Below, piece by piece: positions 11,948-19,461 of a DNA stretch of 21,092 bases. The position numbers were made by a program, and so were the translations under genes. Each line of letters opens with the position of its first letter. Position 1 is the stretch's first letter. A model generated the notes under the pieces. That model did no database searches, was not told where the DNA came from, and saw only the letters and a program-made list of their open reading frames with translations. The DNA lies in the IMG/VR virus record IMGVR_UViG_3300042564_002329, positions 1 through 21,092 of that record; one strand, given 5' to 3'. Source of the stretch: a virus.

Positions 11948-12120
11948 TATTCCTCCATCCACCTGAGTGGTCCAGTCAGCAACCAGATCAGCGTCAGTCC
12001 GCCGAAGAGTGTTGCCATTGTTGATTGCGTGTCGCCCTCTGGCAGAACGACCACAGCGAAGAGCAGACCGAGAATGGTCCACGCCCCACCGACGAGATCT
12101 ACGATGATGCGCTTGATCAC
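11947..12120 (-). CDS. Two-helix membrane protein, candidate holin or antiholin, 57 aa
   Basis: The GTG at 12120 overlaps the upstream TGA (GTGA). The protein reads MIKRIIVDLVGGAWTILGLL, then a short acidic loop (LPEGDTQS), then ATLFGGLTLIWLLTG and an amphipathic end (PLRWMEE). Two membrane segments with short termini and its place immediately before the endolysin gene fit a phage holin or antiholin. Confidence 0.7.
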   Translation of the reverse strand: MIKRIIVDLVGGAWTILGLLFAVVVLPEGDTQSTMATLFGGLTLIWLLTGPLRWMEE

Positions 12121-13178
12121 TTGCTTGCCTTTCTCGCCGTAGCCGCTGCGCTAGATGCAGCAGCCACAGCAGCACTTGCCACTTGACTAATCACGATTGC
12201 CACAGCAACCGGCGCAGCCTTCTTCTTCTCGGCAGGTGAGAGATCTTTGCCTAGGTTGGTAATCGCCTCCACTGCCTTAGTCACAGTCTCAGCGACAGCA
12301 GCGACAGCCTCACCAACTGCCGCAACCGTTTGCTCGCCAATGTTATCTGGTGACGGTGTGGGTTCAGGTGTTGGCTCCACGCTCGGAGCTACGGATGGTG
12401 AGTCACTAGGTACAGCAGTGGTATCAGGAGAAGGGGACTCACTCGGACTAGGTTCTGGCGTAGGGTCAGGCGTGGGCGACGGCTTGGGTGTGGGAGTCGG
12501 TGATGGGATCGGCGATGGTTGGACACTTGGCACCTCACTTGGTGACGGCTCCGGCGTGGGTGTCGGAGTCGGCTCAATGCTTGGCTCTACAGATGGTGAC
12601 GGTTCTGGCGTTGGTTCTGGAGAAGGCTCCACAGATGGCGTAGGATCTGGCGATGGACTTACTGATGGACTTGGCTCTGGCGTTGGCTCAACAGATGGCT
12701 CTTGGCTTGGCTCTGGTGAAGGCTCTGGAGTGGGCGATGGGACGACATAGGTCGGATCGGTAATCGTCAGGAAGCCAGCACCGCAGCAGGAGTCGGTGGC
12801 GTTGATCGCCCAGCCGTACACATCGCCTGCTTGCAGCTCGATGAGGATGCTGCCCTGCACATCGTTGCCGCCATTGGGCTGAACTAGCAGTGTCTCTACG
12901 CCATTGAGCAGGAAGAGCGGACGGTCAAAGAATGGACCATCCTGGGTGGTGTAGTGCCACAGCGCCGAGTAGGTGAAGTCGCTCTCAGCCACGGCCGTGT
13001 AGGACGCGGTGTTAGAGCCGCCTCCCTGATTGGGTCCAGCCAGGGTGAAGCCACCATCTAACTCTGTGACCGAGCCACCGCCGGTGGTGGTGAATGTCCA
13101 GACAGGCATCGCCAGAATCGGCGCGACCATAGAGCAGGTCAGGATGATGCCCAGCAGTGGGAACGCGAGCCGCTTCAC
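12117..13178 (-). CDS. Secreted protein with beta-sandwich-like domain and Pro/Ser/Glu/Thr-rich stalk, 353 aa
   Basis: The GTG start overlaps the upstream stop. Residues 1-23 (MKRLAFPLLGIILTCSMVAPILA) look like a signal peptide; the lipobox is poor, so a lipoprotein is doubtful. Residues 24-141 are beta-rich and end with a paired-Cys segment (ATDSCCGAGFLTITD), like secreted PEP-CTERM-type sandwich domains. Residues 147 to about 280 are a stalk of PEP/PSP/PTP repeats. The C-terminus is Ala-rich with a possible membrane or amphipathic helix (APVAVAIVISQVASAAVAAA). The function is unknown; the position between two small membrane proteins and the endolysin suggests an envelope role in lysis or superinfection control. 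Confidence 0.7.
   Translation of the reverse strand: MKRLAFPLLGIILTCSMVAPILAMPVWTFTTTGGGSVTELDGGFTLAGPNQGGGSNTASYTAVAESDFTYSALWHYTTQDGPFFDRPLFLLNGVETLLVQPNGGNDVQGSILIELQAGDVYGWAINATDSCCGAGFLTITDPTYVVPSPTPEPSPEPSQEPSVEPTPEPSPSVSPSPDPTPSVEPSPEPTPEPSPSVEPSIEPTPTPTPEPSPSEVPSVQPSPIPSPTPTPKPSPTPDPTPEPSPSESPSPDTTAVPSDSPSVAPSVEPTPEPTPSPDNIGEQTVAAVGEAVAAVAETVTKAVEAITNLGKDLSPAEKKKAAPVAVAIVISQVASAAVAAASSAAATARKASK
12335..12740 (-). repeat. Degenerate repeats encoding the Pro/Ser/Glu stalk
   Basis: The coding strand has many near-repeats of short units translating to PEPSP, PTPEPSP and PSVEPS. The opposite strand shows an open frame rich in GSGVGS, a mirror of the same repeats and not a gene. Such tracts change length by slippage or recombination and can differ between related genomes. 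Confidence 0.8.
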
Positions 13179-16369: not shown

Positions 16370-17491
16370 TTAGCGGCCTCGCTTGAATGTTCCTGTGCGG
16401 TTGATCGAGTCAGTCACGACGGTGTCAACCTTGCCTGTGCCAATGAAGATGTTGTTGGTCGTGGCAGGTGGCGTGAATGTGCCAGAGGTCACTGCATTGG
16501 CGAGATAGGGCGAGTATCCGGCGGAGGTCACTCCTGCTTTCGCCGCTGCGCCCTGCGCGGCAAACAACTTCTCTAGACCAAAGACGATGGCATCAATGGT
16601 GATCTTGAGAGCCTGGAGGAAGATCTTGAGCGGCGTGAGCGCAATGATCAACAGGTTGGCAGATCCATCTGCACCACCGAATACCTCAAACAGCGCGCCG
16701 AGTGACTCGCCTAGGGGCGCAATGCCATTGTCGATCAGGTCTTGCAGCACTGGAGCCACCGCGTTGATGATGCTCTCAAAGATCGGCATACCTGTCGTGG
16801 CGAGCCAGTCAAGGAACTTGTTGACGGTCGGCAGCAACTTGTAGCCGAGTTCCTCCATTGTCTCGTTGAACCTGACCTGCGAGCGTGCAAACTTGCCGCT
16901 CGTGGAGTTGGCGATCTCTGCGGCCGTGCCGCCGTACTTAGCGGTCGCAGCAGTCAAGATGTCCTGAATCGTCGCGCCCTTCTCAACCGTGATGCCAAGT
17001 GCCTTCAGTCCACGAGTCGTACCCTGCGCGCCCTTGCCGAGCGTGGTCATTACTTCTGCAAGATCCTGACCGGTGACGGCGGCAATGTCTGCCGCTACGG
17101 CGTTCGCCTGTAGGAGTGTCGCCTGATCAGTAAAGAATCGTGAACCGACCTCTAGCCCAGCGCGCACCTGATCGTCTGCGATACCGAGCGCGCCCATCGA
17201 GAGGATCTGCTCTTTGATCTTGTCGTTGAGATCCTCAGTGAACAGACCGCGCTGCTTCAGTGCAGCATTGAGCAGGATTGTCTGACGCTCGTCATCTGCT
17301 GCGCCCTTGACTGCGACGGCTGCGAGTCCTGCCAATGCCGTGCCGAGTGCGAGCGATCCTTTGGCAATGCCGCTGAACGCGCTGATACTCGTTCGGCGCA
17401 GCTTGCCCATTGAGGTGCCGATCTTGCCAAGCGGCCCAGTAGCCTGGTCTTTGGCTTTGACGACGAAGTTGGCGGTCTGGTTTCCAGCCAT
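16370..17491 (-). CDS. Tape measure protein, short, 373 aa
   Basis: The protein is mostly helical with Ala/Gly-rich hydrophobic segments (SLALGTALAGLAAVAVKGA; FLQALKITIDAIVFGLEKL) and the TQATGPLGKIG style N-terminus of phage tape measure proteins. Residues 130-180 (AVTGQDLAEVMTTLGKGAQGTTRGLKALG) match the phage-related minor tail/TP901 motif. It follows the tail tube and chaperone genes, as expected. Length sets tail length; at about 0.15 nm per residue, 373 residues predict a tail near 55 nm, short for a siphovirus. The ATG overlaps the upstream stop by one base. Confidence 0.85.
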   Translation of the reverse strand: MAGNQTANFVVKAKDQATGPLGKIGTSMGKLRRTSISAFSGIAKGSLALGTALAGLAAVAVKGAADDERQTILLNAALKQRGLFTEDLNDKIKEQILSMGALGIADDQVRAGLEVGSRFFTDQATLLQANAVAADIAAVTGQDLAEVMTTLGKGAQGTTRGLKALGITVEKGATIQDILTAATAKYGGTAAEIANSTSGKFARSQVRFNETMEELGYKLLPTVNKFLDWLATTGMPIFESIINAVAPVLQDLIDNGIAPLGESLGALFEVFGGADGSANLLIIALTPLKIFLQALKITIDAIVFGLEKLFAAQGAAAKAGVTSAGYSPYLANAVTSGTFTPPATTNNIFIGTGKVDTVVTDSINRTGTFKRGR

Positions 17492-17988
17492 CAGCGTTGG
17501 TTACCTCTCTTGAACTTGAGGATGGTGTTGCGGAACGGCTCGTCGTTCAAGAACGCGGCCACCGTCTTACTGTATGACTCTACCGCTCGGTCAAGGTTTG
17601 ATTGCTTCTTTACCACTTGATCAACAAACGGTCTTGCTCTAACTGCCTTGACCGTGAAGGTTCCGTTTTCAGTTCGTCGGCGCGATCCAATCCCTTTCAC
17701 AACCAGCCAGCCGTAGAACGCACCCTTGCGACCACCCTTGACTCCGACAATTGCTGCTGGTCTGTTGTACCTAGCACCACGAGCCTTAATATTCTTTTTC
17801 AACTTGCCAGTTTCTCCGCGTGGCGCAGCATCTTGAATTGGCTTCTTCAGGGTGCGAGCTGCGTTCAGGGTCGCAAAATTCATCAGGCGCTTGAAGGCTG
17901 TTGGGTTGGAACCCTTGAGGAAGCCAAGCCGCAGTTGGTCGTAGTTACTATCGAACTGACCTTCTACGACTACTCCGGCTCGCATCAT
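17491..17988 (-). CDS. HK97 gp10-like head-tail joining protein, 165 aa
   Basis: The segment DAAPRGETGKLKKNIKAR (53-70), strands with AAIVGVKGGRKGAFYGWLVVKG, and the later KAVRARPFVDQVV are the features of HK97 gp10-type tail completion proteins. These usually sit before the tail tube gene, near the head-tail connector. Here it lies after the tail assembly chaperone and before the tape measure, an unusual place. The tandem ATG ATG start overlaps the stop of the chaperone's frameshift extension (ATGA), which supports that extension being translated. Confidence 0.75.
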   Translation of the reverse strand: MMRAGVVVEGQFDSNYDQLRLGFLKGSNPTAFKRLMNFATLNAARTLKKPIQDAAPRGETGKLKKNIKARGARYNRPAAIVGVKGGRKGAFYGWLVVKGIGSRRRTENGTFTVKAVRARPFVDQVVKKQSNLDRAVESYSKTVAAFLNDEPFRNTILKFKRGNQR

Positions 17989-18424
17989 TTCCCTTTCGGC
18001 TGCATCTCCGCGTGGATCATCCAGTGGAGCAGCACCTCATCGATTGGAAGGCTCGCTACCTGCTCTGGCCACATCCCAAACTTCTCGCCTAGGAGATGGA
18101 AGATGATTTCTGGTGGCGGTGCTATGGATTGCCCAAGCGCCATCCGCCTAGCAGCGAGCCTTACTTGGGGTCCGGCTGGTTCGCCTTACCCCACGCCTCA
18201 AGCATCTGCGTCAGTGCGTCAATCGGTGCATCCAGCACATCGTCAACAGCCTTGCCATCAAGGCCTTTGAAGTTATGCGTGACCACCAACTTTGAGAAAG
18301 CAACCAGCGAGCGCTGGCTATCGCCTGACTCCAAGTCGAGCAGGATGCGCGCCGAGACTTGCTTTCGCAGCTCGGCAGTCCACCCTGCAAAGTCACCCTC
18401 TAGGGTGATCTTCACCGTGTCCAT
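17985..18424 (-). CDS. Tail assembly chaperone, long product by -1 frameshift (about 146 aa)
   Basis: A -1 shift at the CCCC run (18167-18170) near the end of the short chaperone gene joins it to a 60-codon frame ending at 17985. The extension reads VRLAARRMALGQSIAPPPEI, then a helical segment with GEKFGMWPEQV and LPIDEVLLHWM, like the T part of GT-type chaperones. The -1 frame has a stop at 18186-18188, so the shift must fall in a 21-base window in which CCCC is the only homopolymer. The extension's stop overlaps the next gene's start. A separate initiation at the internal ATG (52 codons) is the alternative. Confidence 0.7.
18161..18424 (-). CDS. Tail assembly chaperone, short product, 87 aa
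   Basis: This small gene lies between the tail tube and tape measure genes, the standard place of the gpG-like chaperone. The protein starts with strands (MDTVKITLEGDFAGW) and then helices (VSARILLDLESGD, RSLVAFSKLVVTHN), ending NQPDPK. AGGAGGGTCAT precedes the ATG. Many siphoviruses make a short and a frameshifted long form from this locus, both of which coat the tape measure protein until the tube assembles around it. Confidence 0.8.
   Translation of the reverse strand: MDTVKITLEGDFAGWTAELRKQVSARILLDLESGDSQRSLVAFSKLVVTHNFKGLDGKAVDDVLDAPIDALTQMLEAWGKANQPDPK
18165..18170 (-). promoter_or_regulatory. Candidate -1 frameshift site of the tail chaperone
   Basis: Zero frame reads GAC CCC AAG TAA. 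With the C of GAC there are four Cs, so the Pro codon in the P site can slip back one base and still pair as CCC, with CAA next. The A-site pairing is not preserved, so this is not a full X_XXY_YYZ heptamer. The nearby stop may cause the pause. Confidence 0.55.
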
Positions 18425-18456: not shown

Positions 18457-19461
18457 TTATGGCGCGACGCTGAGTGGCGAATCCACGACGATCTCAAGCG
18501 ACTTGCCTGAGGTCGTGTCAAACGCCAGGCGGCAGGTGATCTCATTCACCGTTACGCCCTCGTTATCAGCCGAGAGCGGCACGATGTTCTCGATCTCCCA
18601 CGAGCCGAGAATCCACACGCCGAAGTTATCGGCAGTCGTGCCGTACAGGCGCAGATACTTCTGCGTGGCGATGTCGGTGATTGGGAAGGTCGTGCCAGCG
18701 GCTGCGTTGCTCGCCACCGTGAAGGTGAGCGTTGCATCAAGCACGCCAGTCAGCGCGGCGGTTGCGGCCGTCAGGCTGCCGTCAAGCGCCGTGATCATTC
18801 CAACACCAGTCGTGATTGACAGATTGAAGTTGTAGATCGACGCGAAGTCGGTCGCCCCTGTGCCGGTCTTGTCTGGGAAGTTCGTGTCGGTGCTCAACTT
18901 CATCAAGCGACCAGGCATCATTGGATTGGCAGGGATCGCGTTAGGGAAGGCGAGTGCCGAGCTGGTCACCGTGGTTGCCGCAAAGGTCGCGCCCATCTGG
19001 AGCAAGCCTGCTGCGTCTGCTGAGAAGGTGATCTCCGTTGGCGCTGCATCTCGGACGAGATACTTCTGTACGCCGTCGGTCACAAGGAACGAGTAGAACA
19101 CGAGCGTGTCGACATCGGTCTGTGTTGGCGACCAAGTCCACGAGTACGGCGAAGCCGTGCCTGAGGTGCTCGCGCCGATTGCGTCAAGGACGAGTGGCAG
19201 GGTGCGGAGCGATGCAGGACCCTCAGCAATGGTGAGGACTGGTGCGCGTCCGGTGATGACTGGCTGGCTCGCCTGAATCGCGGTGCGGCGACCTACTGAG
19301 ATCGTCTCGCCAAGATCAACCGTCACGCCCAAGTCAAGAGCGCCGACAGTCTCATTGAAGAGAATCTCGCCGACAGCGGTTCCCATCGAAGCTGCTGTGC
19401 CGAAAGCGGCCTGCGACGCAGTAGCGATTCGCGTCAGAGCCTTTGCGCCGTAAGTTGCCAT
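18457..19461 (-). CDS. Major tail tube protein, 334 aa
   Basis: The protein is beta-rich with an N-terminal pattern typical of siphovirus tube proteins (ALTRIATASQAAFGTAASMG, VGEILFNETVGALDLG). Conserved-looking segments include TLPLVLDAIGAS, WTWSPTQTDVDTLVFYSF, PTEITFSADAAGLLQM and FNLSITTGVGMITALDGS. The late NEITCRLAFDTTSGKSLEIVVDSP is the usual C-terminal strand pair. It precedes the chaperone and tape measure genes. AAGGAG sits eight bases before the ATG. No Ig-like C-terminal domain is seen. Confidence 0.8.
   Translation of the reverse strand: MATYGAKALTRIATASQAAFGTAASMGTAVGEILFNETVGALDLGVTVDLGETISVGRRTAIQASQPVITGRAPVLTIAEGPASLRTLPLVLDAIGASTSGTASPYSWTWSPTQTDVDTLVFYSFLVTDGVQKYLVRDAAPTEITFSADAAGLLQMGATFAATTVTSSALAFPNAIPANPMMPGRLMKLSTDTNFPDKTGTGATDFASIYNFNLSITTGVGMITALDGSLTAATAALTGVLDATLTFTVASNAAAGTTFPITDIATQKYLRLYGTTADNFGVWILGSWEIENIVPLSADNEGVTVNEITCRLAFDTTSGKSLEIVVDSPLSVAP

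Follow-up and report, generated by a model that had tools for sequence, protein, structure and literature searches.

In an uncultured tailed phage, a putative tail assembly chaperone gene very probably (about 0.87 by our estimate) yields both a G-like and a GT-like protein through -1 frameshifting at a C_CCC tetramer, driven by a downstream RNA. The gene lies in a window of 21,092 nucleotides, which is the whole stretch of DNA analyzed (positions 1 to 21,092 of IMG/VR record IMGVR_UViG_3300042564_002329), and is read from its minus strand as follows.

18161..18424, minus strand: zero-frame ORF of the putative tail assembly chaperone (G-like, 87 aa), ATG at 18424, TAA at 18163-18161
17985..18170, minus strand: -1 frame, putatively T-like extension, 61 codons including CCC, TGA at 17987-17985
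18167..18170, minus strand: candidate slip site C_CCC, zero frame GAC CCC AAG, -1 frame CCC CAA GTA

Direct reading of the minus strand gave CAG CCG GAC CCC AAG TAA as the zero-frame 3′ end of the chaperone ORF. After a stop at 18188-18186, the -1 frame stays open via CCC CAA GTA AGG CTC ... AAA until the TGA at 17987-17985; this TGA and the ATG with which the next gene begins (17988-17986) overlap as ATGA. Within the shift region thus permitted in the window, CCCC at 18170-18167 is the sole homopolymer run, and a slip on it was computed to give a 146-aa product. A preliminary description of this DNA had placed the end of the 87-aa frame at 18161, the -1 stop at 18188-18186 and an open -1 frame from CCCC to the ATGA, with CCCC as the only run in the allowed stretch; this layout was accurate in each respect.

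In IMG/VR, a single query found 74 relatives of the 87-aa protein and profile searches as many as 193; for the extension the number was 128-139. Comparisons were made in a homologue set of 97 distinct IMG/VR sequences, in which chaperone identity went down to ~55%. The -1 frame was open in 97/97, whereas stops closed the third sense frame in 97/97 and, past the TAA, the zero frame in 90/97, indicating that the openness of the -1 frame is beyond chance. The extension measured 60-61 codons in 96/96 sequences, and its change was concentrated at third codon positions, with 20/57, 13/58 and 47/58 variable columns at first, second and third positions, respectively. The overlapping -1 ORF was thus conserved as protein, with no conserved start of its own. 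The comparison of the -1 frame among homologues, which the preliminary description had called for, therefore upheld its proposal of a chaperone-like gene with a genuine -1 extension reached at CCCC. An antisense ORF was ruled out as the source of constraint, since antisense frames were closed in most relatives, and they lacked conservation. Among 50,697 records of cultured phages, no relatives of the chaperone, tape measure or major tail protein were found and the extension gave just one chance-level match (E 6); a search of GTDB genomes found no relatives.

The sequence (G/A)AC CCC A(A/G)(G/A) TAA GGC TCG C was common to all 97 distinct homologues, with C_CCC invariant. When third-position changes were counted on a FastTree tree of the 97 sequences, GAC and CCC showed none, compared with 5-20 for most other zero-frame codons; one TTC in the zero frame likewise had zero. 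In one homologue (L168), a -1 stop occurs 9 nt upstream of CCCC, which leaves only GAC CCC AAG as the place of the shift there. Furthermore, the AAG is replaced by AGG or AAA in relatives, so the Lys codon after CCC is not the slippery element. At the level of sequence, the shift is thereby confined to the C_CCC region. The zero-frame stop was always TAA, one codon past CCC and within the spacer before the downstream RNA. C_CCC is a Z_ZZN motif in the correct frame, Z_ZZN or X_XXZ_ZZN being the motif of a programmed -1 signal. Z_ZZN tetramers have been described as a class of -1 slip motifs, and their order of shifting in E. coli is A_AA.G, U_UU.C, U_UU.U, C_CC.U = C_CC.C and A_AA.A; C_CC.C is among six clearly shift-prone tetramers there, always provided that a strong stimulator lies 3′ of it (PMC4066793). 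The site had been interpreted at first as P-site slippage beside a stop codon. The shift at CCCC held, whereas slippage that is mainly stop-adjacent did not, C_CCC being a Z_ZZN tetramer with conserved 3′ RNA.

That RNA, a candidate stimulator overlooked in the preliminary description, is predicted to fold as a three-way junction that begins 5-6 nt past CCCC and comprises the following parts.

18151..18161, minus strand: 5′ arm of the closing stem P1 of the predicted junction, AGGCTCGCTGC
18112..18148, minus strand: predicted hairpin P2, inside the junction, with a covarying pair (columns 53-70)
18069..18099, minus strand: predicted hairpin P3, inside the junction, 92% of cells paired
18049..18059, minus strand: 3′ arm of P1, GTAGCGAGCCT, codons GCG AGC, 0 third-position changes

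The 52 degenerate codons of the -1 frame underwent a mean of 9.3 third-position changes on the 97-sequence tree, and the only ones without any were the stop-overlapping GTA and AGG, CTC, GCG and AGC. The core arms of P1 thus went without third-position change in the 97 homologues. The invariant codons AGG CTC are complementary to GCG AGC, likewise invariant (AGGCUCGC/GCGAGCCU), and AGGCTCGC is the reverse complement of GCGAGCCT. P1 is predicted to link AGGCUCGC directly past the slip site with GCGAGCCU ~100 nt on, enclosing two hairpins. Its arms paired with a mean probability >0.87 in 100/100 sequences folded, the stem was found in 78/78 minimum free energy (MFE) structures, and RNAalifold recovered it unprompted. 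Over 77 distinct sequences, 9/10 of its pairs never varied, and the outermost A-U was lost in 5. As P1 is invariant it has no covariation of its own, and the case for it is the absent third-position change together with complementarity; in a single sequence, a helix of 8 bp with GU pairs allowed is not rare at such a position, arising in 27% of synonymous randomizations. Scans based on the major tail protein for P1 covariation turned up only the same invariant stem or the heptamer-bearing clade described below. Column totals had hinted at one further, covarying P1 pair, between the third positions of codons 4 and 36, but 29/96 sequences had C-A mismatches there and the pair was rejected.

The three-way-junction topology was predicted for the window and most relatives. 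For the whole structure the covariation score was 0.087, versus 0.069 +/- 0.003 in shuffled and <=0.047 in slid controls, without phylogeny correction. The signal came mainly from P2, whose pair at columns 53-70 was GC in 45 sequences, AU in 22, GU in 4 and unpaired in 6; changes in P3 were mostly one-sided, C-G to U-G, and hairpin covariation overall was modest. The MFE of the window RNA was -53.7 kcal/mol versus -42.4 +/- 3.8 in dinucleotide shuffles. Against synonymous shuffles, the mean z was -3.2 within sequence and -2.2 with family resampling, single sequences reaching up to +0.3. Prediction and conservation therefore place a conserved RNA structure a few nucleotides 3′ of the tetramer. 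Rfam gave no match at gathering score, only sub-threshold, chance-level ones.

From these data we propose that the majority of ribosomes would halt at the TAA and release the 87-aa protein. In a minority, the tRNA-Pro on CCC, in the A or P site, would re-pair with the overlapping CCC of C_CCC one base back, CCC being the presumed slipping codon, and the slipped ribosomes would continue with CAA GTA AGG CTC ... to make a 146-aa protein with a T-like domain. The three-way-junction RNA 5-6 nt downstream would stimulate the slippage. The arrangement of C_CCC and downstream RNA fits the tetramer data (PMC4066793) and a stimulator of the IS911 type. In the Z_ZZN reporter of that study, C_CC.C was likewise followed by a stimulator 5 nt downstream; the reporter was derived from IS3, whereas in the window's lineage a natural phage gene carries C_CCC as a fixed site. 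The common natural tetramers among IS elements are A_AA.G, U_UU.U/C and A_AA.A (PMC4066793). For IS911, a three-way-junction RNA stimulator is on record (Rettberg et al. 1999, as cited in PMC4066793 and PMC5009743), and the topology predicted here, with the RNA directly 3′ of a bacterial -1 slip site, resembles it. IS911 differs in being another element with another motif, plus an upstream Shine-Dalgarno-like stimulator; the likeness is one of mechanism only, not of descent. A literature search for three-way-junction stimulators and phage yielded nothing beyond PMC4066793 and PMC5009743, although subscription journals were thinly covered and absence is thus not proven.

Searching IMG/VR with the major tail protein reached a sister clade of 23 distinct loci (L284, L287, L341, L347 and others), whose chaperone was 54% and whose extension was 38% (E 4e-15) identical to those of the window. 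The two types have in common the homologous chaperone and extension, the place after the major tail protein and a -1 shift just before the TAA. Unlike the window type, with C_CCC and the three-way junction, the sister clade carries in the same place CTC CCA AAC GCG TAA, in which the canonical heptamer C_CCA_AAC is invariant (23/23), and 6 nt downstream of it a local hairpin of ~50 nt, GGCUGG...CCAGCC. This heptamer supports -1 frameshifting in the family independently of CCCC. On one contig, a major tail protein with 96% identity to the heptamer clade (L282 2196-3209) stands beside a chaperone of the C_CCC type (84% to window; L170 3001-3261). This arrangement, as read from the sequence, suggests an apparent exchange of the frameshift cassette. 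We lean, with some reserve, toward the view that one phage lineage holds two exchangeable chaperone cassettes, one with C_CCA_AAC and a local hairpin, the other with a weak C_CCC that a strictly conserved three-way-junction RNA of ~113 nt makes workable. If true, a weak slip motif would here be offset in nature by a strong stimulator, and finders requiring a heptamer-like motif would be missing a class of phage recoding signal.

The shift could also take place at C_CCC while being driven by the context of the next codon or the stop, or by an upstream Shine-Dalgarno-like element, with the RNA serving in another role such as blocking internal initiation. The TAA is indeed invariant one codon past CCC, and most relatives carry an AAGG(C/G)G sequence that may act as such a stimulator.

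18180..18187, minus strand: possible Shine-Dalgarno-like element AAGG(C/G)GAA, tentative, ~13 nt upstream of the slip site

AAGG(C/G)GAA is the commonest form in the alignment, not a universal one, and its third-position change was low (AAG 3, GCG 5). Nevertheless, we consider this explanation improbable. The position of the RNA (5-6 nt past the motif), its size and its invariance match 3′ stimulators; C_CC.C barely shifts in E. coli without one (PMC4066793); the heptamer clade too has a hairpin, at 6 nt; and antisense frames lack conservation.

Less probable still is that the extension is a separate small gene, unfused to the chaperone and reached by reinitiation or internal initiation past the TAA, for example at ATG 18143. 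In the window this in-frame ATG does lie 17 nt past the chaperone stop, and termination-reinitiation is common in phage operons. However, among 96 distinct sequences the only in-frame ATG was ATG in 50, CTG in 29, CTC in 8, TTG in 6, CTT in 2 and ATC in 1. A separate gene from ATG 18143 was therefore rejected, its start codon not being conserved. The eight codons preceding it encode a conserved peptide, QVRLAA(R/K)R, and several of them vary synonymously in the -1 frame. Moreover, a separate gene leaves the selection on C_CCC and GAC unexplained, and the canonical -1 heptamer of the sister clade speaks against it. The preliminary description would have been overturned by an unconserved extension or one with its own ATG and ribosome binding site; neither turned up. 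That the frame break reflects sequencing error, pseudogenization or transcriptional slippage is scarcely credible: homopolymer runs are error-prone in sequencing, but the identical overlap recurs in 97 distinct sequences from many samples with purifying selection on both frames, and transcriptional slippage was rejected on account of the shortness of the run (four Cs).

The identity of the 87-aa protein as a tail assembly chaperone is supported well by synteny and weakly by fold. The neighboring genes are as follows.

18457..19461, minus strand: presumed major tail protein, from position and conservation
17491..17988, minus strand: downstream gene, HK97 gp10/Neck1-like (phrog_5, E 1.4e-4)
16370..17491, minus strand: tape measure protein, 373 aa (phrog_991, E 2.9e-8, and synteny)

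The order terminator, major tail protein, chaperone, extension, gp10-like gene and tape measure was kept in 86/99 distinct loci, so that the small ORF lies between the major tail protein and the tape measure, with one gene intervening before the latter. An AlphaFold model of the chaperone (pLDDT 86) had as its top VIA structural match the HK97 tail assembly chaperone 2ob9, which was weak (Z 4.2). Several BFVD matches were annotated as tail assembly chaperone (E 0.03-0.9), and Foldseek against PDB returned nothing significant for this model. No Pfam or PHROGs profile recognizes either half, an absence from these libraries that does not exclude chaperone membership. The extension is predicted to form three or four helices, and its role would be T-like. 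The presumed major tail protein had no family match in Pfam or PHROGs; its identity from one principal group of the wider family to another was 57-73%. The gene at 17491..17988 also matched Pfam HK97-gp10_like at E 0.027, below the cut-off; it sits between the chaperone and the tape measure, not upstream of the major tail protein, an order kept in relatives. The tape measure, at just 373 aa, suggests a short tail. Elsewhere in the window, the minus strand encodes a 353-aa ORF (12117-13178) whose long repeats are of the PSPEPTPEPSP type and whose product may be secreted or fibre-like, and a 404-aa ORF (512-1726) that, on inspection by eye, looks like a family-4 glycosyltransferase (ASRGEGFGIPVIEAQACGTPVIVTDW).

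The G-T chaperone frameshift is conserved in long-tailed dsDNA phages and has been reviewed (PMC5009743). As in lambda G/G-T, a small ORF between the major tail protein and the tape measure would here acquire, by a -1 shift near its 3′ end, a T-like domain from an overlapping frame, and by analogy with lambda gpG and gpGT the two proteins would act on the major tail protein and the tape measure. The window departs from the lambda type in its short chaperone (87 aa), the lack of a profile match and the gp10-like gene before the tape measure. Whereas the sites listed in the G-T review (PMC5009743) are heptamers, the window has a tetramer, C_CCC, accompanied by a large RNA junction that is conserved. 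Chaperone frameshifting is well known in principle; what looks new among phage tail genes is the combination of C_CCC with an RNA fold.

Chaperone frameshifting fixes how much of one tail-assembly protein is made relative to the other, and its annotation often relies on heptamer-like motifs. PRFect, for instance, has eight backward motifs on its list and considers runs of four bases for +1 shifts alone (PMC10885494). The conserved tetramer with its junction RNA across ~100 distinct environmental phages, set against the heptamer of the sister clade, offers a natural pair for the trade-off between motif and stimulator in its effect on the product ratio, and suggests that further sites of this kind go unnoticed in uncultured phages.
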